This document shows positions 10,928 through 41,449 of a stretch of DNA of 64,000 bases, in pieces. The stretch comes from Humidesulfovibrio sp. (GTDB lineage Bacteria; Desulfobacterota; Desulfovibrionia; Desulfovibrionales; Desulfovibrionaceae). Within the stretch, counting starts at the first letter, position 1. Every line of letters starts with the position of its first letter. The position numbers and the translations under genes were made by a program. Below the pieces are notes generated by a model. It was given only the letters and a program-made list of their open reading frames with translations. It was not told the origin of the DNA and did not search any database. Location of the stretch: assembly GCF_031082295.1 (NCBI RefSeq), contig NZ_JAVHLD010000003.1, positions 1-64,000 of the forward strand, written 5' to 3'.

Positions 10928-11616
10928 GTGCTTCTGGCCCTATCATCGCCATTGTCCAGGCGCGCATGAGTTCCAGCCGCCTGCCTGGCAAGTCCCTTGC
11001 GCTTATCCAGGGCAATCCGCTTCTGGCATATCTCTTCGAGAATCTTAAGCTTAGCGCCAGCCTGGACGCAGTTGTCCTGGCCACATCATCAGCCCCCTCG
11101 GATGATCCACTCGCCGCGCTGGCATCAAGGCATGGCGTTCAGGCCGTGCGCGGTGATCTGATGGATGTTTCGGCGCGCTTCCTGCGAGCCATCATCGCCC
11201 ATCCATGCCAAGCCTTTGTGCGCATCTGTGGTGACAGCCCCTTGCTGGACCCCCGGCTGGTAGACGAGGCAATAACCCTGTATCGTCAGGGTGGTGCGGA
11301 CTTGGTGACCAATGTGCTCCGACGCACCTACCCCAAGGGCCAGTCCGTGGAAGTTATAAATACCCAAGCGTTCCGCCGCGCCGAGGCTGCTATGACCGAT
11401 CCCATGGATCGTGAACATGTGACCCGGTACTTTTACACCCGAGCGGACGAGTATCGCATCCGCTCCTTCGAATCAGGTGGCAAGTTTGGCGCGGTAAATT
11501 TCTGCGTGGACACCGCCGAGGACCTGGAGCGCATCTCTGCACTGATTGCGCGCTTTGTGCCGGGTGCTCGTCGGCCTAGCTGGCGCGAGCTGGTGGCGAT
11601 GGAAGGCTACGAATGA
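10924..11616 (+). CDS. SpsF-like cytidylyltransferase
   Basis: A 230-residue nucleotidyltransferase of the SpsF/acylneuraminate cytidylyltransferase type. The N terminus carries IVQARMSSSRLPGKSL (CTP-binding loop), then LATSSAPSDDPLAALA, and RICGDSPLLDP (metal/nucleotide site). Such enzymes are expected to activate a sugar acid or related sugar with CTP. The start ATG overlaps the preceding stop and its own stop overlaps the next start, so it is coupled in a six-gene set ending with a NeuB-type synthase. It probably provides the activation step of that pathway, though the substrate cannot be read from sequence. Confidence 0.8.
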   Translation: MSASGPIIAIVQARMSSSRLPGKSLALIQGNPLLAYLFENLKLSASLDAVVLATSSAPSDDPLAALASRHGVQAVRGDLMDVSARFLRAIIAHPCQAFVRICGDSPLLDPRLVDEAITLYRQGGADLVTNVLRRTYPKGQSVEVINTQAFRRAEAAMTDPMDREHVTRYFYTRADEYRIRSFESGGKFGAVNFCVDTAEDLERISALIARFVPGARRPSWRELVAMEGYE

Positions 11617-12632
11617 ATAAGAGACTCCAGGTTGGCGTCATCGGGCTGGGCATCGGCATGCAACACGCCCGCGCAGTGGCCGCGCACCCCGGTGCGGAGC
11701 TGGCCATGCTCTGCGACCTTGCGCCAGAAAAACGCGCCCAGGCTGCCGCGGAATTTCCCGACACGCCTTTCGTGCCAAATGCAGAGGAACTGCTGGCCGC
11801 CGATTTGGATGTGGTGAGCATCGCCTCCTTCGATGACGCTCACTATCTCCAGGCCCGCAAGACCATTGAAATGGGTCGCCATGTGTATTTGGAAAAGCCC
11901 CTGTGCCTGCGCGAATCCGAAACGAGGGAACTGGCCGCGCTGTTGCGCGCCCACCCTGACGTGCGGCTCTCCTCCAACCTTGTGCTGCGTACCTGCCCGC
12001 GCTTCGTGCGGTTGAAGCAGGAGATGGACGCGGGCGCCTTGGGTTTCGTGTACCACCTTGAGGCCGACTACCTCTGGGGGCGCTTGGCGAAGCTCACCGA
12101 AGGCTGGCGTGCGGAGATGGAGCATTATTCCATTATTCTAGGCGCGGCCGTGCACATGGTCGACTTGGCGCTCTGGCTCACCGGCCAGCGGCCCGTGTCC
12201 GTGGCGGCCTTGGGTTCGAACTTCGCCACGGGTGGCACAAGGCAGCGGCACAATGACTTTGCGGTGCTGCTCATGCGCTTTCCAGGCGGTCTTTCGGCCA
12301 AGATTGCGGCCCACGGCGGCTGCACTCATCCGCATTTCCACCGCCTGGCCGTGTACGGCACCCAAAAAACCTTTGCGGGCGAACTGCCGGGAGCGTATTG
12401 GCTGGACTCCAGCGACGCGACAATGCCGCCGAGAGTGGAAAACGCGGCCTATCCTGGCCGCGAGGAGCGCGGGCAGGCCCTGGCGAGTTTTATCGACACG
12501 TTGAACGGCGTTGTCTCCAGGCCACTGGTGGACGAGGCCGCCGCCTTCGCCGCCATGAGCGTGTGCCACGCTGCGGAGAGGGCTATTGAAACCGGGCGCG
12601 AATGCGCCGTGGACTACTTTTGGGATGCATGA
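11613..12632 (+). CDS. Gfo/Idh/MocA-family oxidoreductase
   Basis: A 339-residue NAD(P)-dependent dehydrogenase. The Rossmann start VGVIGLGIGMQHARA is followed by the family's EKPL motif (in GRHVYLEKPLCL) and a substrate-domain histidine region (GAAVHMVDLALWL). Family members oxidise or reduce sugar hydroxyls, often C3 of a nucleotide sugar before transamination. It lies directly before a DegT aminotransferase, which supports making a keto sugar for amination. Four-base ATGA overlap with the gene before; its stop overlaps the low-probability ATG of the next. Confidence 0.88.
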   Translation: MNKRLQVGVIGLGIGMQHARAVAAHPGAELAMLCDLAPEKRAQAAAEFPDTPFVPNAEELLAADLDVVSIASFDDAHYLQARKTIEMGRHVYLEKPLCLRESETRELAALLRAHPDVRLSSNLVLRTCPRFVRLKQEMDAGALGFVYHLEADYLWGRLAKLTEGWRAEMEHYSIILGAAVHMVDLALWLTGQRPVSVAALGSNFATGGTRQRHNDFAVLLMRFPGGLSAKIAAHGGCTHPHFHRLAVYGTQKTFAGELPGAYWLDSSDATMPPRVENAAYPGREERGQALASFIDTLNGVVSRPLVDEAAAFAAMSVCHAAERAIETGRECAVDYFWDA

Positions 12633-12637
12633 GGTGA
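12631..12637 (+). promoter_or_regulatory. Ribosome-binding site that sets the aminotransferase start
   Basis: GAGGTGA sits five bases before GTG 12643. It favours that codon over the earlier in-frame ATG at 12625, which has no such site. Confidence 0.6.
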
Positions 12638-12642
12638 CCTTC

Positions 12643-13794
12643 GTGAAACGAGTCGTTCCTTTTGGCAAGCCCATCCTGGGCGAGGCGGAACAGCAGGCCG
12701 TGCTTGAGGTTCTTGGCGGTCCCGTGCTGGTTCACGGCCCCCGCGTGAAGCAGTTCGAGGCTGATTTTGCGGCCTGGACCCAATCTCCGCACGCCCTTGC
12801 CGTGGGTTCCTGTACAGCCGGGCTGCACCTGTTCTGGTTCGACCTGGAAATTGGCCCCGGCGACGAAGTCATCGTGCCGGCCCAGACGCATTCGGCCACG
12901 GCCCACGCCGTGGAGTACACCGGTGCGTCCTGCGTGTTCGTGGACTGCGAGCAAAGCACCGGCAACATCGACGTCGACGCCCTTGCCGCCGCGGTGACCC
13001 CGCGCACCCGGGGCATCAGCCTCGTGCACTTCCTGGGCCTGCCCGCGGACATGGACGGCATCAACGCCGTGGCGAAAAAGCACTGCCTGCCAGTGCTGGA
13101 GGACTGTGCCCTATCCATCGGCGCCACCTACAAGGGCGTGCACACCGGCCTTCTAGGCGATGCCGGGGCCTTCTCCTTCTACCCCGTGAAGCACATGACC
13201 ACGGCCGAGGGCGGCATGTTCATCACCCAATATGAGGATCTGGCGGCGCGCATCACCAAGAAGCGGGCCTTCGGCGTCGACCGGGTGGTGGGCGAACGCA
13301 GCGTGCCCGGCGTGTACGACGTGACCATGCTTGGCTACAACTACCGCATGAACGAGATCGAGGCCGCCATCGGCATCGAGCAGTTGAAGCGCATGGACGG
13401 CTTCCTGGCTAGGCGCCGGGAGAACTTCGCCGCGCTTTCGGCCGGGCTAGCGGAACTACCGGAACTCACGGTGCTGGCCTCCGGTGGCGATGACGAGATC
13501 AAGGGCAGCCACTACTGCCTGTCCGTGGTGCTGCGCGAGTCCCTACGACCGCTGCGCTTCGAGTTGGTCAAGGCCTTGAACGCCTTGGGCGTGGGCACCA
13601 GCGTGTATTATCCCCGCCCTGTGCCGCACATGAGCTACTACCGGAACAAGTACGGCCACGAAGAGGGGAGCTTCCCCAACGCGGCGGCCATCAGCTACGG
13701 GTCCATCGCGCTGCCTGTGGGGCCGCACCTGGACCTGGATGACATGGCCTACATGGTTGACGCAATGAAACAGGCTCTCAGCGAGGTGCAATAA
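12643..13794 (+). CDS. DegT/DnrJ/EryC1/StrS-family sugar aminotransferase
   Basis: A 383-residue PLP-dependent aminotransferase. The opening VPFGKPILGEAEQQAVLEVL, VGSCTAGLHL, the DEVIVPAQTHSATAHAV block, LEDCALSIGATYKG and Lys183 in FSFYPVKHMTTAEGGM (the PLP-linked lysine) are all typical. NYRMNEIEAAIGIEQL closes the core. It would transaminate a keto sugar, probably the product of the neighbouring Gfo/Idh/MocA dehydrogenase or of the epimerase/dehydratase. The chosen start is GTG 12643 for its ribosome-binding site; ATG 12625 would add six residues. Confidence 0.9.
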   Translation: MKRVVPFGKPILGEAEQQAVLEVLGGPVLVHGPRVKQFEADFAAWTQSPHALAVGSCTAGLHLFWFDLEIGPGDEVIVPAQTHSATAHAVEYTGASCVFVDCEQSTGNIDVDALAAAVTPRTRGISLVHFLGLPADMDGINAVAKKHCLPVLEDCALSIGATYKGVHTGLLGDAGAFSFYPVKHMTTAEGGMFITQYEDLAARITKKRAFGVDRVVGERSVPGVYDVTMLGYNYRMNEIEAAIGIEQLKRMDGFLARRRENFAALSAGLAELPELTVLASGGDDEIKGSHYCLSVVLRESLRPLRFELVKALNALGVGTSVYYPRPVPHMSYYRNKYGHEEGSFPNAAAISYGSIALPVGPHLDLDDMAYMVDAMKQALSEVQ

Positions 13795-14843
13795 TGATCC
13801 CCATCAAAGGCAGACGCATTGTCCTGGTCGGCGGGGCCGGATTCATCGGCCACAACCTAGCGCTCAAGCTCAAGGAACTCGGAGCCGAGGTGTCCATCAT
13901 CGATGGCCTGCAGGTGAACAACATTCTGGCATTCTCCTCCACGGAGACGAACATCCCCAACCGCGACTTCTACCTGGCGATTCTGAACCAGCGCCAGGAC
14001 CTGTTGCGCAAGGCCGGTGTGCCGGTGTTCATTCAAGACGCCCGAGACTATCACACCCTCGGACATCTTTTTGATAAGGTAAAGCCTCAAGTGGTAGTCC
14101 AACTGGCAGCGGTTTCACATGCCAACAAGTCCAACAAGGACCCCTTCTCCACCTTTGACCACAGCTTCCGCACCCTGGAGAACGCCCTGGACTGCGCGCG
14201 CGGCTACAGCGTCGAGCAGTTCATCTACTTCTCCTCCAGCATGATCTACGGCAACTTCCTGTCCGGTTCGGTCACTGAGGAGACGCACTGCGAGCCCATC
14301 GGCATCTACGGCGCGCTCAAGTTCGGCGGGGAGAAGCTTGTCATCGCCTACAACCAGGCCTTCGACATGCCCTACACCATCATCCGTCCCTCGGCCCTTT
14401 ACGGCGCCCGCTGCGTCAGCCGCCGGGTGGGCCAGATCTTCATCGAAAACGCCCTGCGCGGCACCCAGATCACTATCCAGGGCGACGGCTCGGACAGCCT
14501 GGACTTCACCTGCATCGATGACATGGTGGACGGCATGGTGGCGGTGATGACCAACAAGCAGGCCCTGAACCAGATCTTCAACATGACCTATGGCGAGGCC
14601 CGCACGCTCAAGCAGATGGCCGAGATCGTGCTGGAGCACTTCCCGGATGTCTCCATCAACTACGTACCCAAGGACAAGCTCATGCCCGACCGCGGCACCC
14701 TGTGCATGGACAAGGCCGAGCGACTGCTTGGCTTCAAGCCCTCCTGGCCGCTGGAGCGCGGTTTCCCCGAGTACATCCGCTGGTACAAGGAGATGATCAA
14801 GACGACTGGCATGGACGGCGAATTGCCGGTGACCTACGGCTAG
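13794..14843 (+). CDS. NAD-dependent sugar epimerase/dehydratase (extended SDR)
   Basis: A 349-residue extended short-chain dehydrogenase. The dinucleotide site VLVGGAGFIGHNLA, QLAAVSHANKSNKDP, the SSSMIYG serine region and the catalytic Tyr172-x3-Lys176 pair (YGALK) are visible, with IRPSALYGAR and DFTCIDDMVDGM later. The long insertion after the first strand (NNILAFSSTETN) is unlike ordinary GalE or PseB, so the exact reaction is uncertain. TAATG overlap with the aminotransferase places it in the same translationally coupled pathway. Confidence 0.88.
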   Translation: MIPIKGRRIVLVGGAGFIGHNLALKLKELGAEVSIIDGLQVNNILAFSSTETNIPNRDFYLAILNQRQDLLRKAGVPVFIQDARDYHTLGHLFDKVKPQVVVQLAAVSHANKSNKDPFSTFDHSFRTLENALDCARGYSVEQFIYFSSSMIYGNFLSGSVTEETHCEPIGIYGALKFGGEKLVIAYNQAFDMPYTIIRPSALYGARCVSRRVGQIFIENALRGTQITIQGDGSDSLDFTCIDDMVDGMVAVMTNKQALNQIFNMTYGEARTLKQMAEIVLEHFPDVSINYVPKDKLMPDRGTLCMDKAERLLGFKPSWPLERGFPEYIRWYKEMIKTTGMDGELPVTYG

Positions 14844-14852
14844 GAGCCTCGC

Positions 14853-15578
14853 TTGGACTTCTTTGCGCCAGACAACTTCCTCTCCGCGGTGATGGACCGC
14901 GCTGCCTTCTGGCTGGCAACGACGCCGTCCGAGGATCAGCGGCCCGCCTTTCTGGCGGCGTGCGCCGCGCGTCTGCGCGATCCACGCTTTTTCGGCACGG
15001 CCAAGGCTCCGGCCCAGGACCAGGCACGCCTTTCGCTGTTGCTGGATGCGGGATTTCGGCCTGTGGACGTCAGTTTGTCCCTGGCACGGGTGGTGCGGAC
15101 AGCCGGGGAGATTCCGCCGCAAGCTTGGCCCGGGCTTGTGCGCCTTGCACGGCCAGAAGATGAAGCCGACGTGCGGCGTATCTCAGCCACAAGCCTGACG
15201 ACCAGCCGTTTTCACCAAGATCCGGCCATCGGCCTGGATGTGGCGGCCCGGATCAAGGCCGAGTGGGCAGGCAACTACTTTTGCGGAAAGCGCGGCCAGA
15301 CCATGGCGGTGGCCGAGAAGGACGGCCGCGTGGCAGGTTTTCTGCTCTTTCTTTACTCCGGCCAGTCGCTGATCATCGACCTTTTGGCCGTGGACGCGCC
15401 CTTCCGTCGCCAGGGAGCTGCGGCGGCCATCATCGCCTTTGCCGAGGCCAATCTGCCCGGGTTCACCACCCTGGCCGTGGGCACCCAGGCGGCCAACACG
15501 GGCAGCGTGCGCTTCTACGAGTCCCTGGGCCTGCGTTACACGGGGTCCAGCTACGTGCTGCACGCCCACGGGGGGTAG
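14853..15578 (+). CDS. GNAT-family N-acyltransferase
   Basis: A 241-residue protein. The first 90 residues are variable, and the GNAT fold fills residues 100-240: VRLARPEDEADVRRI, then the acyl-CoA loop region (LAVDAPFRRQGAAAAII) and VGTQAANTGSVRFYESLGL. It would acetylate or otherwise acylate an amino sugar, as PseH and SpsD do in nonulosonic acid pathways. The start is TTG 14853, seven bases after AGGAG (14842-14846). Between epimerase and NeuB-type synthase, this is the position expected for the acylation step. Confidence 0.85.
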   Translation: MDFFAPDNFLSAVMDRAAFWLATTPSEDQRPAFLAACAARLRDPRFFGTAKAPAQDQARLSLLLDAGFRPVDVSLSLARVVRTAGEIPPQAWPGLVRLARPEDEADVRRISATSLTTSRFHQDPAIGLDVAARIKAEWAGNYFCGKRGQTMAVAEKDGRVAGFLLFLYSGQSLIIDLLAVDAPFRRQGAAAAIIAFAEANLPGFTTLAVGTQAANTGSVRFYESLGLRYTGSSYVLHAHGG

Positions 15579-15580
15579 CT

Positions 15581-16597
15581 ATGCGAATCGGTAAGCACGA
15601 CACCGCCAAGCGGGTCTTCATCATCGCCGAGGTGGGCAACAACCACGAGGGCGACTTCGGCCGCGCTCGGGAGATGATCGCGGCGGCGGCGCAGGCCGGG
15701 GCCGATGCTGTGAAGTTCCAGACCATCACTCCGGAGCGGCTGGTGTCCGCCCTGCAGACCGAGCGCATTGCCCAGCTGTCGCGCTTCAAGTTCAGCCAGG
15801 AGCAGTTCGCCGAACTGGCCGGGCTTGCCCAGGACAACGGCCTGCTGTTCATGTCCACGCCTTTTGACCTCGAAGCGGTGCGCTTATTGGCTCCGCTGGT
15901 ACCGGCCTTCAAAATCGCCTCGCCGGACAACACGTTCTTCCCGCTCATCGAGGCGGTGGCCTCCACGGGCAAACCCGTGCTGTTCTCCGCCGGGCTGTGC
16001 GACAGAACCGAGCTGGCCGCCAGCGTGGCCTTCCTTAAGTCCGCCTGGGGCGCGGGAGAGGCCTCCGACGTCTCGGACCGTCTAGCCCTGCTACATTGCG
16101 TCTCGGCCTATCCCACGCCGGACGACCAGGCCGGGCTTGCGGCCATTCCCAGGCTCTCCGGGTACGGCGCCACGCCGGGCTATTCCGACCACACCCTGGG
16201 CGTGGACGCGGCCGTGCTCTCCGTGGCCCTGGGCGCGCGCATTGTGGAAAAGCACTTCACCCTGGACAAGACCCGCGAGGGCTTCCGCGACCACCAACTC
16301 TCTGCAGACCCTGCGGACATGGCCGCCATGGTCCGGCGCATCCGCCAGGCCGAGGCCATGTTGGGCACGCCCCAGGTGTGCTGCGCCCCCTGCGAGGAAG
16401 CCGGACGAGTGGCCTACCGCCGGTCCATCGTGGCCGCTGTGGACCTGCCCCCTGGCACCGTGCTCGGGCCGGAGCACCTGGACTGGGTTCGCCCCGGCGG
16501 TGGCCTGCCTCCCGGACACGAGCGCGCGCTGATTGGACAGACCTTGCGCGCGGCCAAAAAGCGCGGCGAGCAAATCTTGGTGGAGGATGTAACCTGA
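15581..16597 (+). CDS. NeuB-type nonulosonic acid synthase
   Basis: A 338-residue member of the NeuB/SpsE/PseI/LegI family, enzymes that condense phosphoenolpyruvate with an amino sugar to give a nine-carbon 2-keto-3-deoxy acid. Signature segments: FIIAEVGNNHEGDF, GADAVKFQT, FMSTPFD, KIASPDN, HCVSAYPTP, GYSDHTLG, and EKHFTLDKTREGFRDHQLSADP. A C-terminal antifreeze-type (SAF) domain follows (RRSIVAAVDLPPGTVL to the end). It starts two bases after the GNAT stop. Which sugar it makes cannot be told from sequence, because no PseG or NeuC partner is in the window. Confidence 0.92.
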   Translation: MRIGKHDTAKRVFIIAEVGNNHEGDFGRAREMIAAAAQAGADAVKFQTITPERLVSALQTERIAQLSRFKFSQEQFAELAGLAQDNGLLFMSTPFDLEAVRLLAPLVPAFKIASPDNTFFPLIEAVASTGKPVLFSAGLCDRTELAASVAFLKSAWGAGEASDVSDRLALLHCVSAYPTPDDQAGLAAIPRLSGYGATPGYSDHTLGVDAAVLSVALGARIVEKHFTLDKTREGFRDHQLSADPADMAAMVRRIRQAEAMLGTPQVCCAPCEEAGRVAYRRSIVAAVDLPPGTVLGPEHLDWVRPGGGLPPGHERALIGQTLRAAKKRGEQILVEDVT

Positions 16598-31736: not shown

Positions 31737-32420
31737 ATGATTGTCCCCACCACTGTAGCCGACCACGCAGGTCATCAGGCGCTCGTCTTCGACTTTGATG
31801 GTGTGTTGGTGGATTCCACCCACATCAAGGCCGAGGCCTTTGCTGAGGTGTACCGGCCCCTGGGGCTCGACACTGCCAGCCTGGCTCAGCAGCACTTTCT
31901 GGCCCACCTCGGGGTATCGCGCCGCAACAAGTTCAAGTACTGCCAGACTTCGCTCACGGGGGGCCCCAGCGATCCGACCGAGATAGATCGACTCTGTCTC
32001 CAATTTTCCAAGCTGGTTGTGGCTCGGGTCCTGGCCGCACGAGAGATCCCTGGAGCCACCGACCTTCTTCTTCGTTGGCATAAGCGTTTGCCGCTCTACG
32101 TAAACTCGGCCACACCGGACGAAGAGCTGGCCGAGATCCTCCACGGGCGGAATCTGTCGCAATATTTCCATGCCGCTTATGGATCAAGCCGTAGCAAGAC
32201 GGAAAACCTAGCCCATATTCTGTCCGAAAAGATGTATGATCCCGAGCGGGTGATCTTCTTCGGCGACGCCATCTCCGATTGGATAGCGGCCAAGTGCTGC
32301 GGGGTAAGCTTTGTTGGCATCACGGCCGCCCCGTCCTCTCCCTTACTTGAGGCCGGTGGACAATTCCCCGTTTGCCGCGACCTGCGCGAAGCTGCCGCCC
32401 TGCTAGAGGAACGAGCATGA
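31737..32420 (+). CDS. HAD-superfamily phosphatase
   Basis: A 227-residue HAD hydrolase of the beta-phosphoglucomutase/phosphatase group. Motif I is Asp19-Phe-Asp21 (FDFDGVLVDSTH), motif II is in YVNSATPDEE, and motifs III/IV are KTENLAHIL and FFGDAISDW. The usual role is removal of phosphate from a sugar phosphate. It is followed by genes for two aldolases and a CMP-sugar synthetase, so it may dephosphorylate an acid-sugar intermediate, as KDO8P or KDN9P phosphatases do. It overlaps the next gene by four bases. Confidence 0.85.
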   Translation: MIVPTTVADHAGHQALVFDFDGVLVDSTHIKAEAFAEVYRPLGLDTASLAQQHFLAHLGVSRRNKFKYCQTSLTGGPSDPTEIDRLCLQFSKLVVARVLAAREIPGATDLLLRWHKRLPLYVNSATPDEELAEILHGRNLSQYFHAAYGSSRSKTENLAHILSEKMYDPERVIFFGDAISDWIAAKCCGVSFVGITAAPSSPLLEAGGQFPVCRDLREAAALLEERA

Positions 32421-34288
32421 TCATCCTAACAACCGATACTGCCCCGCAGATCATCCGGCAGAAAATGCGCGAGCACAAGTTCACGGCCTGGGCATATATT
32501 GGCTCCAACCACGCAACCCTGCTTGGACTTGAAAATATTTTGTCAGACCTAGCCGAAGGCTTGCCGGTCCACGAGCGGGCACAGACGTATGAATGGCTCC
32601 TCAGATCGGAGTATGTACAATGGCTGGACGCACTCTACGAACCAGGGCTGGACAGTCTCCCCACGCGCATCTCTATGGTGGCGGACAAAAACACCTCCAA
32701 CTCCAACCTGTTCCACTCGCTTCTGCTCATGTATACGTTCATCCAAATGATGAAGGAGAGCAGCCATTCCGTCCTGGTCTGTTGCGATGACGTGTTTCAG
32801 GGCCGCTCCTTGGCAAAGACGTTGCGAGGCCTAGGCTATAGGGACGTGCGTTGCGAGCAGGCCCTGCGCCGTACGATGTTGTCCTGGTGCCGCTCCGCAG
32901 CCATTGCCTTGCGAGATATCTGCACTGAATTCATTCGGCTTCTACGCCTATGCAGGGAATGCCGTAGTCTACCCACTCCGCAGCGCCCAGGCCCTTGCCT
33001 GCTAGTGCTGACAGCCCTGGACAGGGACAGCTTCGGAACCGATGGCGTCTTAAGCGACCGCACCTTCCCTGGCCTTTTCGACTGGGCACGAAACAATGGC
33101 CATCAGCCCTTACTGTTCCCACAAATTCTGGCCAACAGGAAAGATTATTCCGCCTCTCTGGCCTGGCTGATCCGACACATACCCGACACCTTTATCCCCT
33201 GGCGGCATTTGAGAATCCCGGACCTGTGCAAGGCCCTGGCAGTGTTCCTGGCCCAGGGGGTCATGCCGTTGCCGCCCCGAACCTTCCAGGGCATAGAGAC
33301 TCGCCCCATGACACGCTTCCTTCGCCTGAACCAACTGCGCCATGTGTACAAACTCATGATCGCAGCCTACCCGGCAGCCCTCCGTAACCTTGCCCGGACC
33401 ACCAAACTGAAGCGCGCAATCATCCGATACGAGAATTCGCCCCTCTGCAAGGCTGTGACCTTCGGGATTCGCAAGGCTTGGCCTCAAGCTGTGGTGCTCG
33501 GTTATCAGCACTCCGCCATCGCCCCGTTCATGCTGAAGTACACATGCTCCAGGCAGGAGTACTCTCCTCTGTTCCAGCCCGACATAATCCTGTCTAACGG
33601 CCCTTGGTTCACAGAACGACTGCGCTCCGATGGATTCCCCCGGGATCGAATCCAGACCGGCCCAACGCTGCGCTCCCCATTTCTCTTTTCGAACTTCCAG
33701 TATGTCGGAAGCGGCCAACCCATCCCTCGAATTCTGGTGCCGATGCCTCTGGACCTGAACGCGGCCCGGGAACTTGCCGAAGTGTTGCGCAACACTTTTG
33801 CGCATCCAGGCTATGAGGTGCTTGTCAAGCTTCATCCATTCGCTGATCGGAACGAAGCTTCCCAGTGCATCGCCATTTGCGAAATGGGCTCGGGAATGCG
33901 TTTCGTGGAAGGAGAAATCTTTGACCAACTGCGCCTATGCGACGCTGTGACCGGGCTCGCCAGTGCCGTACTCATGGAGGCGGCCGCATTAGGCATTCCC
34001 ACCTTCCCCATCCGACGGCGGGTGGGGGTGGATCTAAACACCCTGGCATGGTTCGCAGACGCCGCCCACTATTCCCTGCCATCTGGGAACGACCGAGAAC
34101 TCCGGGAGCGTCTAGACCACTTCTTCACCCTGCCAGTTTCAGGAAGGATTTCCCAGGCCGCAAGACTGGCGGGTTTGGTGCGAAACTGCTACTCTCAGTC
34201 CGCCACCGGGTATGAAATGTTTCTAGAAATCCCGCCAGGACTCCCACGGGCAGGCAATGTTACAGCAACTTCCGAGGGGCAACGATGA
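32417..34288 (+). CDS. Large putative surface-carbohydrate GT-B-like protein
   Basis: A 623-residue soluble protein with no firm family. The C-terminal half looks GT-B-like: VVLGYQHSAIAPFM, PDIILSNGPWFTERL, ILVPMPLDLNAA, VLVKLHPFADRNE and VTGLASAVLMEAAALGIPTF. This resembles CDP-glycerol transferases and the LIC13510-type surface carbohydrate proteins. The N-terminal 280 residues are unrecognised. It starts on an ATG overlapping the phosphatase stop and ends overlapping the next small gene, so it is in the same coupled unit. Likely a transferase acting late in glycan assembly. Confidence 0.65.
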   Translation: MIILTTDTAPQIIRQKMREHKFTAWAYIGSNHATLLGLENILSDLAEGLPVHERAQTYEWLLRSEYVQWLDALYEPGLDSLPTRISMVADKNTSNSNLFHSLLLMYTFIQMMKESSHSVLVCCDDVFQGRSLAKTLRGLGYRDVRCEQALRRTMLSWCRSAAIALRDICTEFIRLLRLCRECRSLPTPQRPGPCLLVLTALDRDSFGTDGVLSDRTFPGLFDWARNNGHQPLLFPQILANRKDYSASLAWLIRHIPDTFIPWRHLRIPDLCKALAVFLAQGVMPLPPRTFQGIETRPMTRFLRLNQLRHVYKLMIAAYPAALRNLARTTKLKRAIIRYENSPLCKAVTFGIRKAWPQAVVLGYQHSAIAPFMLKYTCSRQEYSPLFQPDIILSNGPWFTERLRSDGFPRDRIQTGPTLRSPFLFSNFQYVGSGQPIPRILVPMPLDLNAARELAEVLRNTFAHPGYEVLVKLHPFADRNEASQCIAICEMGSGMRFVEGEIFDQLRLCDAVTGLASAVLMEAAALGIPTFPIRRRVGVDLNTLAWFADAAHYSLPSGNDRELRERLDHFFTLPVSGRISQAARLAGLVRNCYSQSATGYEMFLEIPPGLPRAGNVTATSEGQR

Positions 34289-34665
34289 GCATCTTTTATC
34301 CTCCACAAGCCATGGCGGCCCGCTTCTCTTCAGTCATTAACTCGCAGGAAGTTCTCAAAGTCACCGAGCATGCACCCAGCCAATCCCGGAAAGATGCATC
34401 CAAGAAGGTCATAGTGTCCCTGTCTGAGCTAAGCCTACGCCTTGGCGGAGAATCCTGTTATTACTTTCAGCCTCAAAGGGCCGTGCGCCAGTCCTCGCGC
34501 CCCAACCAATTTCGCAACTACCCATGGCTCACGGGATTCGCCCCGGTGGGCTACAATCCCTGCCTCCTCCGTCGCCTGTTCAGCCAGCATTTCTTCCATA
34601 TGCGCCCGGGCCTCGTGGCCAAGATAGTGACGGGCACCGCCGACAGCAGCAAGGGCGCCGCATGA
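34285..34665 (+). CDS. Hypothetical protein, 126 residues, coupled on both sides
   Basis: No family recognised. The gene overlaps the preceding stop and the following start by four bases each (ATGA twice), which is strong evidence that it is translated. The protein is basic, with a central RLGGESCYYFQPQRA segment and a tail of FFHMRPGLVAKIVTG. It has no signal peptide or membrane helix. Its place between a GT-B-like protein and the aldolase fusion suggests a small accessory role. Confidence 0.6.
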   Translation: MSIFYPPQAMAARFSSVINSQEVLKVTEHAPSQSRKDASKKVIVSLSELSLRLGGESCYYFQPQRAVRQSSRPNQFRNYPWLTGFAPVGYNPCLLRRLFSQHFFHMRPGLVAKIVTGTADSSKGAA

Positions 34666-36365
34666 ATCACAAACCGCTAGAAGTTCTGGACTGCACCCTC
34701 AGGGACGGGGGTTACATCAACAACTGGGACTTCCCTCCGTCCATGGCCAAAAACGTCTTCCGTCACCTGTCACGGGCTGGGGTCGACGTGGTCGAGGTGG
34801 GGCTACGCGACGCGAATCCGACCTCTCCCCTTTTGCGCCGATGCCCGGACGACCTGCTTGCCGAAATCAAGGGCCCCAGCAAAGGCGCCCGTCTGGCGGT
34901 TATGGTAGACTACGGAAAAGCAGACGAACAGGCCTTCGCCCCCTCCTCGGAGTCGCCGGTGGAGATGGTCCGGGTGGCCGTGCATAGGGACAAAATCAAA
35001 AGCTGCCTTAGCTTACTGCAAAAGATCAAGAACAAGGGATACCAGACCTCGATCCAGCTCATGGGATACCCCCAGTATTCCAAGAGTGAACGGCGCGACA
35101 CACTGAACATCATCAAGGACTCCCCCCCGGACTATGTTTACATCGCAGACAGCAACGGCTCGCTGTTTCCAGATAACGTCCAAGAGCTTCTCTCTCCCTT
35201 AGTGGAGGTGGCACAATTTAAGGTCGGCTTCCATCCGCACAACAACCTCCAATTGGCCTTTGCCAACGCTCTGGAAGCCATCCGTTGCGGGGTACACATT
35301 TTAGACAGCACTCTCTACGGCATGGGGCGGGGAGCCGGCAATCTGCCCACGGAAACGCTGTTGGCCTATCTCCAGCATCTGATACCGCACCAATACAACG
35401 TCGTCCAAGCCCTGCTCTGCGTGGACTTGTACCTACTTCCCCTAAGCCGTGAATACATCTGGGGCTATCAGCTCCCCTACGTCATCTCCGGCTTCTGCCA
35501 ATGTCACCCCAGTTATGCCAAGGCCATGGTGGAAACGCGTCGCTATACCATCGACGATGTCTGGAAGATTCTCAACCTGATCCACAAGCACAATCCCGTC
35601 GGCTTTGATCCTGAACTGCTGCGTTCGACGCTTGAAGCCGGTGTGCTTGGCCATGACGCGGTGAACCTGTCGTCCGGGTTTGACTTTGAGGAAGAAAGCG
35701 TGGCCGAGATCCCCAGCCCGCCGGAATACGCAGGGCGACATAGCGGTCGTCCCTTCCTGATCTTGGCCAACGGGCCAAGCCTGCGAAGCAGTCACAACCA
35801 GATCAAGGCCTTCATAAAGAAGTATAACCCCATTGTCATGGGCGCCAATTTCCTCGGCGGCATGTTCACGCCGCATTACCATGCGTTCACAAGCAAGAAG
35901 CGCTTCATTACATATGTGGACAGCGTGGCCCCGGAGTCCAGGCTGCTGCTTAGCCCCTACTTCGGCGAAGAGTTCATCCGCCAACACACAGAACGCGAGT
36001 GGGAGCCGATCTCCTACCTGACGGCTCCCCGAGAGACCCTCACCATCGAAGACGGGGTGATCTCTAACGACTGCTACTCCGTTTCCATGCTGCTCATCGC
36101 TGTAGCCGCTGTCATGGGCGCAGGCGAGGTATTCGTAGCCGGAATGGACGGCTATCTGCACAGCGATGCGGACGGGAGCTTCTATTTTTATGAGGAAAAG
36201 GACGACACCGCCTCCCCGGAATTCAACCTGACACGCCAGCGGTGGGGCACTCACACCCTGGCACTGTTGGACGCTCTCTTGGTGGGTATGGGGCTAAGCG
36301 GTGTGAACATCATAACCCCAACCGACTATGAGCGCTATTATCGGGGTATCAAAAGCCTCACATGA
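34662..36365 (+). CDS. Fusion: HMGL/DmpG-like aldolase plus MptE-like domain
   Basis: A 567-residue two-domain protein. Residues 5-290 are a DRE-TIM metallo-aldolase of the 4-hydroxy-2-oxovalerate aldolase type: DCTLRDGG (10-17, with the Arg-Asp pair), VEVGLRD, YIADSNGSLFP and metal-binding His191/His193 in FHPHNN. Residues 362-567 resemble the DUF115/MptE-like domain (FLILANGPSLRSS, VMGANFLGG, VFVAGMDGY), related to motility-accessory-factor glycan transferases. The pair could make an acid sugar from pyruvate and transfer it. The start is ATG 34662 overlapping the upstream stop. Confidence 0.82.
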   Translation: MNHKPLEVLDCTLRDGGYINNWDFPPSMAKNVFRHLSRAGVDVVEVGLRDANPTSPLLRRCPDDLLAEIKGPSKGARLAVMVDYGKADEQAFAPSSESPVEMVRVAVHRDKIKSCLSLLQKIKNKGYQTSIQLMGYPQYSKSERRDTLNIIKDSPPDYVYIADSNGSLFPDNVQELLSPLVEVAQFKVGFHPHNNLQLAFANALEAIRCGVHILDSTLYGMGRGAGNLPTETLLAYLQHLIPHQYNVVQALLCVDLYLLPLSREYIWGYQLPYVISGFCQCHPSYAKAMVETRRYTIDDVWKILNLIHKHNPVGFDPELLRSTLEAGVLGHDAVNLSSGFDFEEESVAEIPSPPEYAGRHSGRPFLILANGPSLRSSHNQIKAFIKKYNPIVMGANFLGGMFTPHYHAFTSKKRFITYVDSVAPESRLLLSPYFGEEFIRQHTEREWEPISYLTAPRETLTIEDGVISNDCYSVSMLLIAVAAVMGAGEVFVAGMDGYLHSDADGSFYFYEEKDDTASPEFNLTRQRWGTHTLALLDALLVGMGLSGVNIITPTDYERYYRGIKSLT

Positions 36366-36390
36366 TGTGGGCAAGCAACGAATCACACAC

Positions 36391-36395
36391 AGGAG
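36391..36395 (+). promoter_or_regulatory. Ribosome-binding site that sets the DapA/NanA-like start
   Basis: AGGAG lies five bases before ATG 36401. It supports that start over the ATG at 36362, which overlaps the previous stop but has no site of its own. Confidence 0.6.
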
Positions 36396-36400
36396 CCATC

Positions 36401-37321
36401 ATGATTTTTCCAAGAATAGTTGTTCCCGTCATCACCCCGTTCGCCCCCGATGGCCGAGTCTACGAGACGGGTGTAGAAAATCTACTCCAGTTCCTGCGCC
36501 GACATGGCATCACGGGCCTTTGGGTGCTGGGCTCCTATGGCGCTTTCCCGTTGCTGGACCAGGACCAGCGTAAGCATGCGGCCACGGTTTTCCTGAGCAC
36601 AGCCAAAAAACTTGGCATGACAACAGTTATCCAGGTGGGCGCGCCCTCTGTGGAGCACGCCACCGACCTTGCGCGTCACGCCGAAAATTCTGGAGCTGAT
36701 GCCGTAGCCTCTGTGGTCCCCTTCTACTACTCTTCTTCCCACTACAACGAGGAAAATTTCCTCGACTATTTCGGCCAGCTATCTAAAGCGACAAAGTTGC
36801 CGCTTTTCTACTACAACAACCCCAAAACAACGGGCTACACACCCTCCATCGCCTTTCTGCAAAAGCTAGTCGACGTGGGTGTGCGCGGCATCAAGGACAC
36901 CACCAGCGATTTTATCAGCATCACCGACAAACTGCGCGTGTTCGATGAATCGACGGCTCCAGGAACCTACCTAGGAGGCTCCTCCAGTGTGTACCTCCCC
37001 TGTCGACTCATGGGTGCGCCAGGCGTTGTCTGCGGCACCGCCGTGGCCCTGCCCGAATTCATCCTTGCCATGGACCAAGCCATTCAGGATGGCGACATGG
37101 TCCAGGCTCAAAAACTCCAACGGACGGTCCACCGGGTGAGGGAGATCCAGGGCCGCTACGTGGGTCGTTCCGCAGCGTGCTACGACATTCTGCACGCTAG
37201 AGGAGTTGATGTGGGGACGGTCAAGCCGCCTTGGCGACGCATGACTCGCGAGCAGGCCCGCGAAATAATGGCCGACCTTGCAGCCCTGCCTGGCGTTTTG
37301 CCTTTAGGACCCGAAGCGTAG
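36401..37321 (+). CDS. DapA/NanA-family class I aldolase
   Basis: A 306-residue member of the dihydrodipicolinate synthase/N-acetylneuraminate lyase family. IVVPVITPFAPDG opens the barrel. LPLFYYNNP carries the family tyrosine, and IKDTTSDF carries the Schiff-base lysine. The normally conserved GSTGE loop reads GSYGAF, losing both Thr and Glu, so the carboxylate-binding pocket is altered and true DapA function is unlikely. It probably cleaves or forms a 2-keto acid sugar using pyruvate. It sits between the aldolase fusion and a CMP-sugar synthetase. Confidence 0.85.
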   Translation: MIFPRIVVPVITPFAPDGRVYETGVENLLQFLRRHGITGLWVLGSYGAFPLLDQDQRKHAATVFLSTAKKLGMTTVIQVGAPSVEHATDLARHAENSGADAVASVVPFYYSSSHYNEENFLDYFGQLSKATKLPLFYYNNPKTTGYTPSIAFLQKLVDVGVRGIKDTTSDFISITDKLRVFDESTAPGTYLGGSSSVYLPCRLMGAPGVVCGTAVALPEFILAMDQAIQDGDMVQAQKLQRTVHRVREIQGRYVGRSAACYDILHARGVDVGTVKPPWRRMTREQAREIMADLAALPGVLPLGPEA

Positions 37322-37394
37322 CCAAGTATATGCCGCAACGCGCATCACGAGCTTCGCCCCGTGAAATGGCACCACAACAACGGCTGGAGAGCAG

Positions 37395-38093
37395 ATGTAC
37401 AAACGGTTCGCATGCATACCCGCGCGAGGCGGCTCTGTCAGGGTTCCCAGAAAAAATTTACTGGAGATCAACGGCAAGCCCCTGCTCGCCTACGCTGTCG
37501 ATTCCGCCTTGGCCACCGGTTTGTTCGATGAAGTCTTCGTCAACTCCGACAGCGACGAGATTCTGCAGGTGGCAGAACGTTGCGGCGCCCAGGCCTACCG
37601 ACGGCCTCTGCAACTGGGCAGGGGTGACGTATTTCTAGTCCACCTGCTCCATGAAATGATCAAAAATATGGAGTGGGGTGAGTCGGAGATGCTGGCTGTG
37701 CTACTCCCCACCTGTCCGCTGCGGCGTCCTCACCACATACGCGAGGCCGTGGAGCTCTTTGAGAAGCACGGCGGCTCGCACAGCGTTGCCTCTGTTTGCG
37801 AATATGAAACGCCCATTCACCTTGCCCAATTTGTGGACCACGAAGGACGCCTGAGCCCATATTTCCCTGACGACTACCTTCGCTCGACACGAAGCACCGA
37901 CCACCCAGCGGCTTTCCGTTTCAACGAGGCGGTGGTGATCAACAGCGCCCAAGGCTTTCTCGGTCAAAACACCCTCATTGGGAGCCGGCCTCTGCCCTAC
38001 ATTATGGATCCGGCCCACTCCATCGCCATCGACTACGACTATCAGGTCAACATGGTGAGCAGCATGCTGCAGTTCGAAGATACCGACAGGTGA
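37395..38093 (+). CDS. NeuA-type CMP-acid-sugar synthetase
   Basis: A 232-residue acylneuraminate cytidylyltransferase. CIPARGGSVRVPRKNLLEINGKP is the CTP-binding start (seen as CIPARGGS, VPRKN and INGKPLLAYA), with VNSDSDEIL, VLLPTCPLRRPHHI and a late AIDYDYQ acidic motif. It would make the CMP-activated form of a 2-keto-3-deoxy acid. The preceding phosphatase and two pyruvate-type aldolases supply a plausible substrate route. It is distinct from the SpsF-like enzyme at 10924, so the locus has two cytidylyltransferases. Confidence 0.9.
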   Translation: MYKRFACIPARGGSVRVPRKNLLEINGKPLLAYAVDSALATGLFDEVFVNSDSDEILQVAERCGAQAYRRPLQLGRGDVFLVHLLHEMIKNMEWGESEMLAVLLPTCPLRRPHHIREAVELFEKHGGSHSVASVCEYETPIHLAQFVDHEGRLSPYFPDDYLRSTRSTDHPAAFRFNEAVVINSAQGFLGQNTLIGSRPLPYIMDPAHSIAIDYDYQVNMVSSMLQFEDTDR

Positions 38094-41000
38094 CACAGCA
38101 CAGGCTACCCACCGACAACCGCGGCGACACGACCGCGCATGTGAATCAGGGCGGAGACACCACCACCTTGACGAATAAGGCGCCATTGTGGCACCCATTG
38201 CAAGCCATGACCCTCACCAACAGGACCAACCACCGCATGATTCTGCGCCATCATGCGCGCATCGGGCATATTTTCATTCCAAATCTGAAAGCCCGCGTCC
38301 CTCACGAGGCAGGCGGCTATTTTGTTCAAACGAACAGTGAGGGGTTCCGCTCCGATATTGAATTTGTCGGTCCCAAAGGGTCGCAGTCGCGCATTCTTTT
38401 CTTCGGCGACTCCATGACTGCCGGAGACGGTTGCGACAACGCCGAGCGCTTCTCCGACCTCGTCGGCCAGAGCCTAGGTTGCGAGGTGTACAACTACGGG
38501 TTGTCGGGCTCGGGAACGGACCAGCAGGTGCTGGTTATGGAAGAAGCGGCAGCAAAAGTTGACGCTGATGCCATCATTCTCTGTGTCTATGTGGAGAACA
38601 TCCAGCGCAACCTTTTGTCCTCACGCCCCACACTAGACAGAAGCTCGCAGCAAATAGTTCGGGTACCCAAGCCTTTCTTTCGCCTGGAGGGTGGGAACTT
38701 GGTCCTGCACAACACCCCCGTTCCACTGGCACGAGAGCTGGCCCAACCTGGTGATGTCCACCATGAAGGCATGCCCGGCCTGCTCCATCTGGCGCGCGGC
38801 CTTGCCGCCAGGATGCGTAAGAATCCACGCCTGACAAGGGCCCTGAGACCATTGCTTTCTCCAAAGACCTCCGACTACTGCCTGCTGCGCTCGCTGTTCC
38901 CCCGGCTGGCAGGGTACCAGCCCGTCCCCGAGTACGACGACATAAATGGTGAAGCCTGTCAGCTCATGTCTGCGCTGCTTCGACGAGCCCGGGCCTTGAG
39001 CAAAGGCAAGCCGCTGATCATCATGCCCATTCCCACCTTGGACCATGTGCTTGGCAAGGCAAAAGCAAATTTCCAACGTTTTTTTAACCAGTTTGAAGAC
39101 CCGTCTTCGGGCGTCTTTGTGGCAAATCTCCATTCCTATCTCGCCCGCCTCCCTTTTGCCTCCCGCAAGCGTCTGACGTTCGATTATGATGCTCATTTTT
39201 CCTGCTTCGGCCATCAGACCATCGCGAAGTTCCTGGTTAAAACCCTCAAGAGCCTGGGCATCCCGTCGGCACATCCAGCTCCCCTTCCCCCAGATGCCGA
39301 ACCAACCATGCCCTATTATATTCTGGGGCTGTCATGCTACTATCACAACTCTGCGGCCTGCTTACTCAGAGATGGTGAAATCCTGGCGGCAGCCGAAGAG
39401 GAACGTTTTACCCGCATAAAGCACGACAGACGTTTTCCTCATGCGGCCATCAACTACTGCCTGGAGGAGGCTGGCATACATGCGCGCCACCTCTCTGCCG
39501 TTGTCTTCTATGACGATCCGGAACTAACTTTTGAGCGCATGATGGCGACGGTAGCCAGCGCTGGCCCCGAGGGCCGCGACCAGTGGATGCGCATGATGCC
39601 CTCATGGGTATGCTACAAGCTTCGTATTCCACATGTCATCCGTCGTTCGCTTCACGGCTATAGGGGCCCAATTCTCAAAAACATGCATCACCGATCACAT
39701 GCCGCCAGCGCATTTTTTCCTTCACCTTTTGAACAGGCCGCCATCCTCACGATAGACGGCGTAGGAGAGTGGGCGACGGCCACAATCGCCAGGGGTACTG
39801 GCAATAAAGTAGAAATGCTGCGAGAAATGCGCTTTCCACACTCCCTAGGCCTACTCTATTCCGCCTTCACCCAATTCCTGGGATTCAAAGTCAACTCTGG
39901 AGAGTATAAGGTTATGGGTTTGGCTCCTTACGGGGAGCCGAGGTTCTTGGAACAGATACTGAGCGAAGTGATCAACCTTGCCGAAGACGGATCATTGCGC
40001 CTAAATCTTGAACACTTTACCTTTCTCTCTCAACCCGCAATGGTCGGAAGCTCTTTTGAGAGGCTGTTCGGACCCGCACGGCAACCGGAAACCCCACTCA
40101 CCCAGCGCGATCTGGATTTAGCCAGATCTGTGCAGGCCGTGACAGAGGAGGCCGTTTTACGCATGGCAAGAACGGCTCACGCGCTTACGGGTGAACAATA
40201 TTTATGCCTTGCTGGGGGCGTTGCGCTTAATTGCGTGGCCAACGGACGCCTGCTTCGAGAAGGTCCCTTTGCAGACATCTGGATTCAGCCTGCGGCGGGG
40301 GATGCGGGTGGTGCCCTTGGCGCCGCATTGGATGTTTGGCATTCGACGCTGGGGCACCCGCGTAGGGTCAGCCCGAAAATAAACGGGGCACAGAAGTCCT
40401 CATTGCTCGGCCCCTCGTATTCCGGTGCCGAAATTCGCGCTTTTTTGGAGAGCCACGGCCTGCCCTACCAGTCTTTGCACCAAGAAGAACGGCCCGCCAT
40501 CCTCGCGGAATTGGCCGCCAAGGGCAAAGTCATCGGACATTTCTCCGGGCGCATGGAATATGGTCCCAGGGCGCTCGGAGCGCGGTCCATCATTGCGGAT
40601 GCCCGCAACCGTGAAATGCAGTCTGTATTAAACCTGAAGATCAAGTACAGGGAATCGTTTCGGCCCTTCGCGCCCATAGTGCTGGAAGAGAAGGCCAAAG
40701 ATTATTTCGAGTTAGACCGCCCCAGCCCGTACATGCTTATTGTGGCACCTGTAGTTGAATCCCGGCGCATTCCATTTGCGCTACGCGCCGGTCAGAGCGT
40801 GCACGACGCCGTGCGTGAGCCTCGCAGCGAAATTCCGGCTGTCACCCATGTCGACTACTCCGCCCGCATCCAAACTGTGGGCGGGAATGCCAATCCGCCC
40901 CTGCGAAACTTGCTGAAGGCCTTTGAGACCCTCACTGGCTGTGCTGTCATGGTCAACACTTCATTCAACGTGCGTGGCGAACCCATTGTCAACACACCGC

Positions 41001-41449
41001 GGGATGCGTACCACTGTTTCATGAACACTGAAATGGACGTGCTCGCCCTAGGCGATTTCCTCCTCCTGAAGGAGGAGCAGCCAGCGTGGCAGGGCTCGCA
41101 GCCTCACAAGCCGCCCCCATCCACGGACTTTAACCCGAACCTGTTGGCGACATTGGACGACATTTTTTTACACGACTTCCAGCCTGCCGCCGATGCTCTC
41201 AGTGACCCCTTGCACTTGCAGGGCAAGGGAACCTCAAACTGGGAATGCTGGCTGGCGCGGCAGGCGCCACAGGAGTTCGGGCATGCCTCCGAGAGGGCTC
41301 CTGAAGGCGTCACAACTTCGTGGACCAATAGGCCGATGGCCCGCGCACTTGGCCTCTGCCTTGCGAAGATTTTGGCTCTTGGGACCACTTATGCCTCTGA
41401 GGAGGAACTTCGAGAGGAGATTGCGGACAATTTGTACATCATGTTCTAG
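38090..41449 (+). CDS. Fusion: SGNH hydrolase-like domain plus NodU/CmcH-type carbamoyltransferase
   Basis: An 1119-residue protein. Residues 95-395 are SGNH/GDSL-like: FFGDSMTAG (Gly106-Asp107-Ser108), LSGSGTDQQ, and Asp367-x-His369 near the domain end. From Met407 the carbamoyltransferase begins (YYILGLSCYYHNSAACLL) with AAEEERFTRIKHD, MHHRSHAASAFFPSPF, LTIDGVGEW, MGLAPYG, LAGGVALNC, FSGRMEYGPRALGARSII and NTSFNVRGEPIV. Such enzymes carbamoylate sugar hydroxyls using carbamoyl phosphate and ATP. A tail of about 110 residues is unrecognised. GTG 38090 overlaps the upstream TGA. An internal ATG at 39308 could start the carbamoyltransferase alone. Confidence 0.88.
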   Translation: MTQHRLPTDNRGDTTAHVNQGGDTTTLTNKAPLWHPLQAMTLTNRTNHRMILRHHARIGHIFIPNLKARVPHEAGGYFVQTNSEGFRSDIEFVGPKGSQSRILFFGDSMTAGDGCDNAERFSDLVGQSLGCEVYNYGLSGSGTDQQVLVMEEAAAKVDADAIILCVYVENIQRNLLSSRPTLDRSSQQIVRVPKPFFRLEGGNLVLHNTPVPLARELAQPGDVHHEGMPGLLHLARGLAARMRKNPRLTRALRPLLSPKTSDYCLLRSLFPRLAGYQPVPEYDDINGEACQLMSALLRRARALSKGKPLIIMPIPTLDHVLGKAKANFQRFFNQFEDPSSGVFVANLHSYLARLPFASRKRLTFDYDAHFSCFGHQTIAKFLVKTLKSLGIPSAHPAPLPPDAEPTMPYYILGLSCYYHNSAACLLRDGEILAAAEEERFTRIKHDRRFPHAAINYCLEEAGIHARHLSAVVFYDDPELTFERMMATVASAGPEGRDQWMRMMPSWVCYKLRIPHVIRRSLHGYRGPILKNMHHRSHAASAFFPSPFEQAAILTIDGVGEWATATIARGTGNKVEMLREMRFPHSLGLLYSAFTQFLGFKVNSGEYKVMGLAPYGEPRFLEQILSEVINLAEDGSLRLNLEHFTFLSQPAMVGSSFERLFGPARQPETPLTQRDLDLARSVQAVTEEAVLRMARTAHALTGEQYLCLAGGVALNCVANGRLLREGPFADIWIQPAAGDAGGALGAALDVWHSTLGHPRRVSPKINGAQKSSLLGPSYSGAEIRAFLESHGLPYQSLHQEERPAILAELAAKGKVIGHFSGRMEYGPRALGARSIIADARNREMQSVLNLKIKYRESFRPFAPIVLEEKAKDYFELDRPSPYMLIVAPVVESRRIPFALRAGQSVHDAVREPRSEIPAVTHVDYSARIQTVGGNANPPLRNLLKAFETLTGCAVMVNTSFNVRGEPIVNTPRDAYHCFMNTEMDVLALGDFLLLKEEQPAWQGSQPHKPPPSTDFNPNLLATLDDIFLHDFQPAADALSDPLHLQGKGTSNWECWLARQAPQEFGHASERAPEGVTTSWTNRPMARALGLCLAKILALGTTYASEEELREEIADNLYIMF

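Follow-up and report, generated by a model that had tools for sequence, protein, structure and literature searches.

In the 64,000-nucleotide stretch of Humidesulfovibrio sp. analyzed here (contig NZ_JAVHLD010000003.1 of assembly GCF_031082295.1; hereafter the window), a block of genes at positions 31737 to 38093 probably encodes a pathway, independent of phosphoenolpyruvate (PEP), to a 3-deoxy-2-ulosonic acid that would be activated with cytidine monophosphate (CMP) and used for a surface polysaccharide; we infer the reactions, the donor and the sugar alike. The computation directly gives the gene content of the block, its recurrence, the conservation of catalytic residues, a single case of an aldolase fused directly to a cytidylyltransferase, and the presence of an aldolase-cytidylyltransferase pair in genomes without a clear PEP-dependent synthase. 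A first-pass annotation made from the sequence alone had proposed that this block uses aldolases to build an acid sugar, which is then activated with CMP. In outline the proposal holds, and its support is stronger than was stated there.

The open reading frames (ORFs) of this high-GC window were called with an amino-acid-scored caller. The block comprises the following features.

31737..32420, + strand: HAD-family phosphatase P0001, 227 aa (PF13419, 1.4e-14; motifs FDFDG and GDAISD in the translation)
32417..34288, + strand: TIGR04326-like GT-B glycosyltransferase P0002, 623 aa (TIGR04326, 2.4e-9)
34285..34665, + strand: 126-aa ORF of doubtful reality (4-base overlaps with both neighbors; low coding score of 5.0)
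34662..36365, + strand: DmpG-like fusion protein P0003, 567 aa (PF00682, 3.5e-25)
34662..35651, + strand: DmpG-like (DRE-TIM) aldolase domain of P0003, about residues 1-330 (PF00682)
35733..36362, + strand: sialyltransferase-like (GT42-like; also MptE-like) C-terminal domain of P0003, residues 358-567 (sequence profile)
36362..37321, + strand: DapA/NanA-family aldolase P0004, 319 aa (PF00701, 1.5e-37)
37395..38093, + strand: NeuA/PseF-type cytidylyltransferase P0005, 232 aa (PF02348, 5.7e-18)

The four genes named in the first-pass annotation (HAD, DmpG-like, DapA/NanA-type and NeuA-type) were all recovered in place by Pfam and NCBIfam matches, and the glycosyltransferase and the second domain of the DmpG-like protein are additions to its inventory. 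The genes form a coupled unit, as it had described, with 4-base overlaps at the HAD/glycosyltransferase, DmpG-like/DHDPS-family and NeuA-type/next-gene junctions, a 73-base gap between the DHDPS-family gene and the NeuA-type gene, and a stretch of about 370 bases from the glycosyltransferase stop to the aldolase start, bridged by the doubtful 126-aa ORF. The block also lies apart from the NeuB module. No NeuB or KdsA match was found between 31.7 and 38.1 kb by profile searches; NeuB is located at 15.7-16.4 kb, with another CTP_transf_3 gene close by at 10.9 kb (both within window positions 10924-16597). The next gene (38090-41449), which shares 4 bases with the end of the NeuA-type gene, encodes a carbamoyltransferase with an N-terminal GDSL/SGNH-like region that falls below the Pfam cut-off.

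In the proposed pathway, the metal-dependent DmpG-like domain of P0003 would condense a sugar aldehyde, which is probably a phosphate, with pyruvate or a 2-keto acid related to it. The phosphate would then be taken off by the HAD enzyme (P0001 is a candidate ulosonate-phosphate phosphatase), the CMP-sugar would be made by the NeuA/KdsB-type enzyme, and the sugar may be transferred by the sialyltransferase-like domain on P0003, by the HP-motif glycosyltransferase, or by both. The DapA-type enzyme, replaced elsewhere by HpaI or a KdgK-like kinase, may be a variant-specific extra that supplies, for example, the aldehyde or a second three-carbon unit.

A scan of genome contigs gave 523 confirmed relatives of the DmpG-like protein, and the best 80 of the 523 were analyzed with their flanks. 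The locus counts cover 86 loci with the fusion protein and 23 control loci with unfused relatives; L056, L057 and L103 were left out since their fusion gene is incomplete, the unfused L076, L089 and L094 were placed among the controls, and L073 was scored as fused despite having a cytidylyltransferase as its second domain. The fusion protein was found under at least ten phylum labels, mostly in metagenome-assembled genomes (MAGs). Within the family of the window's organism (149 genomes, its own included), two genomes possess a full-length relative of the DmpG-like protein at 43% identity (G096 and G132), and a third (G026) has a more distant one, 26% identical in the alignment. The plasmid relatives are partial, with none of the 10 records reaching 80% query coverage.

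All five gene families of the window recur in a Planctomycetes MAG (L043), in the order fusion protein, NeuA, DHDPS, HAD and glycosyltransferase, and four of the five in a Pseudomonadota MAG (L039), in the order DHDPS, HAD, fusion protein and NeuA. In the remaining loci DHDPS is absent or replaced by HpaI, and a KdsB-type enzyme stands in place of NeuA. Several Clostridia (e.g. L095, L104 and L110) have a set of cytidylyltransferase, fusion protein and HAD only. The functions thus stay together, but their order is shuffled and parts are exchanged, which bears both ways on the earlier proposal, where a block broken up in relatives was to count against it. In two of the Clostridia sets, an amino-acid-racemase-family gene lies closely upstream (L095:7941-8693 and L110:6881-7627). 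In 25 of the 86 loci, a protein related to LdpA, a clock protein of cyanobacteria (4Fe-4S; e.g. L022:7914-8924), is encoded at most two genes from the aldolase.

A cytidylyltransferase is located at ±1 gene of the fusion protein in 46/86 loci and within ±5 genes in 63/86, and in none of the 23 unfused controls. The search model for these enzymes was made from neighbors pre-labelled by similarity. Few of the labelled sugar families occur in the control loci, which therefore may not be sugar loci at all, and a comparison within loci is fairer. Genes of the fused loci that do not belong to the module have a cytidylyltransferase at ±1 less often: RfbF in 0/21, RfbH in 1/26, the thiamine pyrophosphate (TPP) enzyme in 1/14, LdpA in 0/25 and NeuB in 7/20. 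The association persists in 57 of 79 non-redundant loci, a count that omits L112 and six loci more than 90% identical to another row (L036, L040, L144, L023, L148 and L149).

An aldolase tree was built from the first 340 residues of 78 rows, L101 being additionally left out. On this tree the presence of a cytidylyltransferase requires 7 changes; shuffled labels needed 33.3 on average, and none of 500 shuffles gave a value as low. Its occurrences lie mainly on a pair of deep branches, in which 32 of 37 and 23 of 27 rows carry it. A direct fusion was also found: in L073, a MAG whose record is titled archaeon, an HMGL domain (9-239) and a CTP_transf_3 domain (348-562) are encoded in one gene, with a HAD gene before it. 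The L073 row groups with the unfused relatives, outside both deep branches; therefore the same aldolase-cytidylyltransferase link arose apart.

We further surveyed 29 hand-chosen genomes with the fusion protein (G000, L039, L043 and 26 loci from the range L077 to L114) for PEP-dependent synthases. NeuB scored above 100 bits in 11 of them, KdsA exceeded its model cut-off in 7, and neither was seen in 17. The aldolase-cytidylyltransferase pair is present in 16 of these 17 genomes: the cytidylyltransferase adjoins the fusion protein in 15 and lies two genes off in one (L090), and in L097 there is none. Four named strains are among the 16, namely Paenibacillus polysaccharolyticus BL9, Flavonifractor sp. 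An82, Lachnoclostridium sp. An76 and Paenibacillus sp. HB172176, and their weak NeuB matches (30-39 bits) fall on genes of the 3-deoxy-D-arabino-heptulosonate 7-phosphate (DAHP) synthase family. In L110 and L114 the cytidylyltransferase beside the fusion protein is the sole CTP_transf_3 match in the genome.

These genomes bear on the explanation that an ordinary product of NeuB or KdsA is what the NeuA-type enzyme activates, with the aldolases making an unrelated decoration of the same polysaccharide. The KdsA and the four NeuB genes of the window's own genome, which has six CTP_transf_3 matches, speak for this explanation, as does the occurrence of NeuB within five genes of the fusion protein in 9/86 loci. 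The pair in 16 of 17 genomes without a clear NeuB or KdsA, the direct HMGL-cytidylyltransferase fusion of L073, and the separate CTP_transf_3 gene near the window's NeuB nevertheless make it an unlikely account.

P0003 matches the NCBIfam 4-hydroxy-2-oxovalerate aldolase subfamily at 1.6e-35 and 122.7 bits, under the cut-off of 229. Its predicted structure has a mean pLDDT of 88.9, and structural alignments of this model, which spanned residues 1-333, matched the aldolase half to 3dxi (Z 35.4, rmsd 2.0, 291 aligned residues) and to DmpG 1nvm (Z 33.1, rmsd 3.9, 325 aligned). The metal ligands of the HMGL fold (Asp and His-x-His) and its Arg and Glu are kept, with R14, D15 and E45 in 46/46 ungapped rows and H191 and H193 in 47/47. 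The domain therefore has the fold and the Arg, Asp, Glu and His-x-His residues in common with DmpG/BphI and 3dxi, whereas the extra domain, the surface-sugar setting and a Tyr, in most rows, at the position of the presumed catalytic His of DmpG set it apart. In the PDB, 3dxi carries no name beyond putative aldolase. The titles and abstract openings listed from the open-access literature yielded no assay of an enzyme from the DmpG-like fusion family. Nor was a description found there of the gene set, TIGR04326, the 3dxi family, KdsB in Gram-positives, or fusions of an aldolase with a sialyltransferase, which is not proof of absence.

The second aldolase, P0004, is closest among NCBIfam models to the archaeal 2-keto-3-deoxygluconate (KDG) aldolase (Arch_KDGaldase, 1.6e-42, below the cut-off). 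Its DHDPS-family relatives are 48% (L039) and 40% (L043) identical to it. The altered pocket noticed in the first-pass annotation is real: the pyruvate carboxylate motif (two Ser/Thr, G-T-T-G type) is not kept, with G-S-Y-G in all three proteins and G-S-Y-G-A/S-F standing where the aligned KDG aldolase has G-T-T-G. The positions of the Schiff-base Lys178 and of Tyr151 are kept in the same three. This conservation and the KDG aldolase match would suit a scheme in which P0004 itself is the ulosonate synthase, acting on pyruvate and an aldehyde, and the role of the DmpG-like protein is limited to supplying or trimming a precursor; so would the substitution of HpaI, another pyruvate aldolase family, in related loci. 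We consider such a scheme improbable. A DapA/NanA-type enzyme lies within five genes of the fusion protein in 3/86 loci and HpaI in 19 others, thus either in only 22/86, and the small loci of cytidylyltransferase, DmpG-like protein and HAD (such as L095, L104, L110 and L113) have neither nearby. Because of this low frequency the DmpG-like fusion protein is likely the core of the system. The route that had been proposed accordingly stands as one distinct from NeuB, given its recurrence in L043 and L039 and the pair in the genomes without a clear NeuB or KdsA, but with its core moved from the DapA/NanA-type enzyme to the DmpG-like fusion protein.

P0005 passes the PF02348 cut-off (65.9 bits against 22.6) and matches the PseF equivalog at 1.5e-35 and 122.9 bits, under its cut-off of 205.7. 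Its best solved relative is a CMP-N-acetylneuraminate synthetase (1.1e-25). All 57 cytidylyltransferases of the non-redundant loci match PF02348; at 1e-30 or better, 34 of the 57 match KdsB models and 5 match PseF. KdsB-type enzymes are specific for 3-deoxy-ulosonic acids. The enzyme of L095 (Flavonifractor An82) clears two NCBIfam cut-offs for CMP-Kdo (3-deoxy-D-manno-octulosonic acid) synthetase, and a clear KdsA is missing from its genome.

The C-terminal domain of P0003 was compared by sequence profile only. With a profile of 74 sequences, which includes L073, the nine top PDB matches, at 7.5e-6 to 0.0096, are all chains of sialyltransferases; seven of these are of CstII type and nearly identical in sequence. 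A SteA-like protein (0.021) and an MptE-type pyrophosphokinase (0.049) come next. Sialyltransferases are again on top with a 22-sequence profile from which L073 is absent (best 0.0018). The likeness to the CstI/CstII sialyltransferases, which we take to be family GT42, is thus weak and repeated and extends over about 115 residues. The domain differs from them in that it is fused to an aldolase, the aligned stretch stops before the catalytic His and the donor-site region, and among the Pfam matches of single members MptE-like is commoner than CST-I. For the window's own domain only MptE-like is listed (24.3 bits, cut-off 34.6), and PF06002 CST-I is not; a PF06002 search of 297 genomes of the phylum gave one match, below the cut-off. 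Stand-alone MptE-like proteins of about 255 aa were also seen directly before a cytidylyltransferase (L085:8456-9235 and L103:8546-9307).

A further putative transferase is P0002, whose TIGR04326 match (36.1 bits) is far under the cut-off of 250. The predicted structure (pLDDT 85.7) gave GT-B matches, and KpsC is absent among the matches listed. KpsC is a CMP-Kdo-dependent beta-Kdo transferase. A 16-sequence profile of P0002, built from relatives 15-20% identical, reaches KpsC at 1.4e-5 over about 80 residues, to which the likeness is confined; the K-x-H-P motif (K471, H473 and P474), present in 16/16 sequences of the alignment, and the following lobe are common to both proteins. The HP motif is described as common to beta-Kdo transferases and some CMP-sialic-acid-dependent enzymes (PMC10148158) and as taking part in CMP-Neu5Ac binding (PMC2169525).

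One clade departs from the pairing with a cytidylyltransferase. In 13 loci (L060-L070, L072 and L074), the same fusion protein is accompanied by a TPP enzyme (11 loci), RfbF and/or RfbH (8), HpaI (6) and an LdpA-like Fe-S protein (10), and no cytidylyltransferase was found near it. Not every locus therefore has CMP activation, and the second domain is also present where it is lacking. By its gene families this clade is a candidate pathway to a branched sugar linked to cytidine diphosphate (CDP). It follows that the pathway may yield a 2-keto acid that is put to different uses. A more general form of this would have the DmpG-like module make a 2-keto acid, not necessarily a sugar, that serves the TPP enzyme as acyl donor on a CDP-sugar in this clade and becomes a CMP-activated residue elsewhere. 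The TPP enzyme, RfbF/RfbH and HpaI of the clade speak for it, the KdsB-model matches of 34 of the 57 associated cytidylyltransferases speak against it, and we regard it as quite improbable. A CMP-activated phosphonate as the product ranks low because the partners are KdsB-type.

Several observations weigh against the PEP-independent pathway itself. Beside the clade just described, 9 of the 78 non-redundant rows, L073 included, have neither a TPP enzyme nor a cytidylyltransferase within five genes, and partners in the module adjoin a cytidylyltransferase much like the aldolase does (glycosyltransferase 14/27, HpaI 10/20 and KdgK-like kinase 8/12). The position of the DmpG catalytic His, which we take to follow R-D-G, is occupied by Tyr in 38, His in 7 and Leu in 1 of 46 ungapped rows, with Tyr18 in the window. 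The full-length P0003 profile matched the MptE-type pyrophosphokinase 8sd5 (0.0047) and no sialyltransferase, and in searches with single members PF01973 MptE-like was found in 42/74 and PF06002 CST-I in 6/74, at E values up to 0.5. The orphan argument is not applicable to the window's organism, because its genome has KdsA and four NeuB genes. Some Gram-positive genomes possess more than one gene of the DAHP synthase family, which could hide a PEP-dependent synthase. Most of the 29 surveyed genomes are MAGs by title, and the near-identical fusion genes of L038 (titled Brocadia) and L040 (titled Flavobacteria) suggest that some MAG labels are wrong. Finally, P0005 aligns Ala211 to Asp209 and Leu104 to Gln104 of Neisseria meningitidis NeuA, so that the metal-binding pair Asp209/Asp211 of the Neisseria enzyme is not kept in full (Ala211 and Asp213 in P0005). 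The activity of the D209A variant of that enzyme was reported to be too low to measure (PMC2901514). Among the 57 locus synthetases, Asp is found at P0005 position 213 in 50 and at position 211 in 20; the L045 relative of P0005 likewise has no Asp at the position of NeuA Asp209. The alignment points either to a metal site built differently in P0005 or to reduced activity.

If the pathway is true, acidic surface sugars would have another route of synthesis, through a pyruvate aldolase, and a family filed only as putative aldolase (3dxi) would gain a role. Enzymes such as the KdsB-type protein of L095, in a genome without a clear KdsA, would be explained. The small three-gene loci in named strains make the proposal directly testable. 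Chances are about even that a third class of ulosonic-acid synthase is represented here, in which a DRE-TIM metallolyase uses pyruvate and a sugar or sugar phosphate, followed by a HAD enzyme, a KdsB/NeuA-type enzyme and a CMP-sugar transferase domain on the same chain as the synthase; such a class would account for KdsB-like enzymes in bacteria without KdsA.

To our knowledge, all known CMP-ulosonic acid pathways use PEP-dependent synthases. The Kdo pathway (KdsA, KdsC and KdsB) proceeds from a PEP synthase to a HAD phosphatase and then a CMP synthetase, and the proposed route would likewise comprise a synthase, a HAD phosphatase, a KdsB-type CMP synthetase and a CMP-dependent transfer. It differs in having a DRE-TIM metallolyase in place of KdsA and a transferase-like domain fused to the synthase, and the window's HAD protein matched no KdsC model in the Pfam and NCBIfam searches. 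With the nonulosonic acid pathways (NeuB and NeuA) the window shares a NeuA/PseF-type synthetase and a sialyltransferase-like domain, whereas the block has aldolases instead of NeuB. On balance we regard the system as a variant of the known CMP-ulosonic acid pathways in which an aldolase would replace the PEP synthase.

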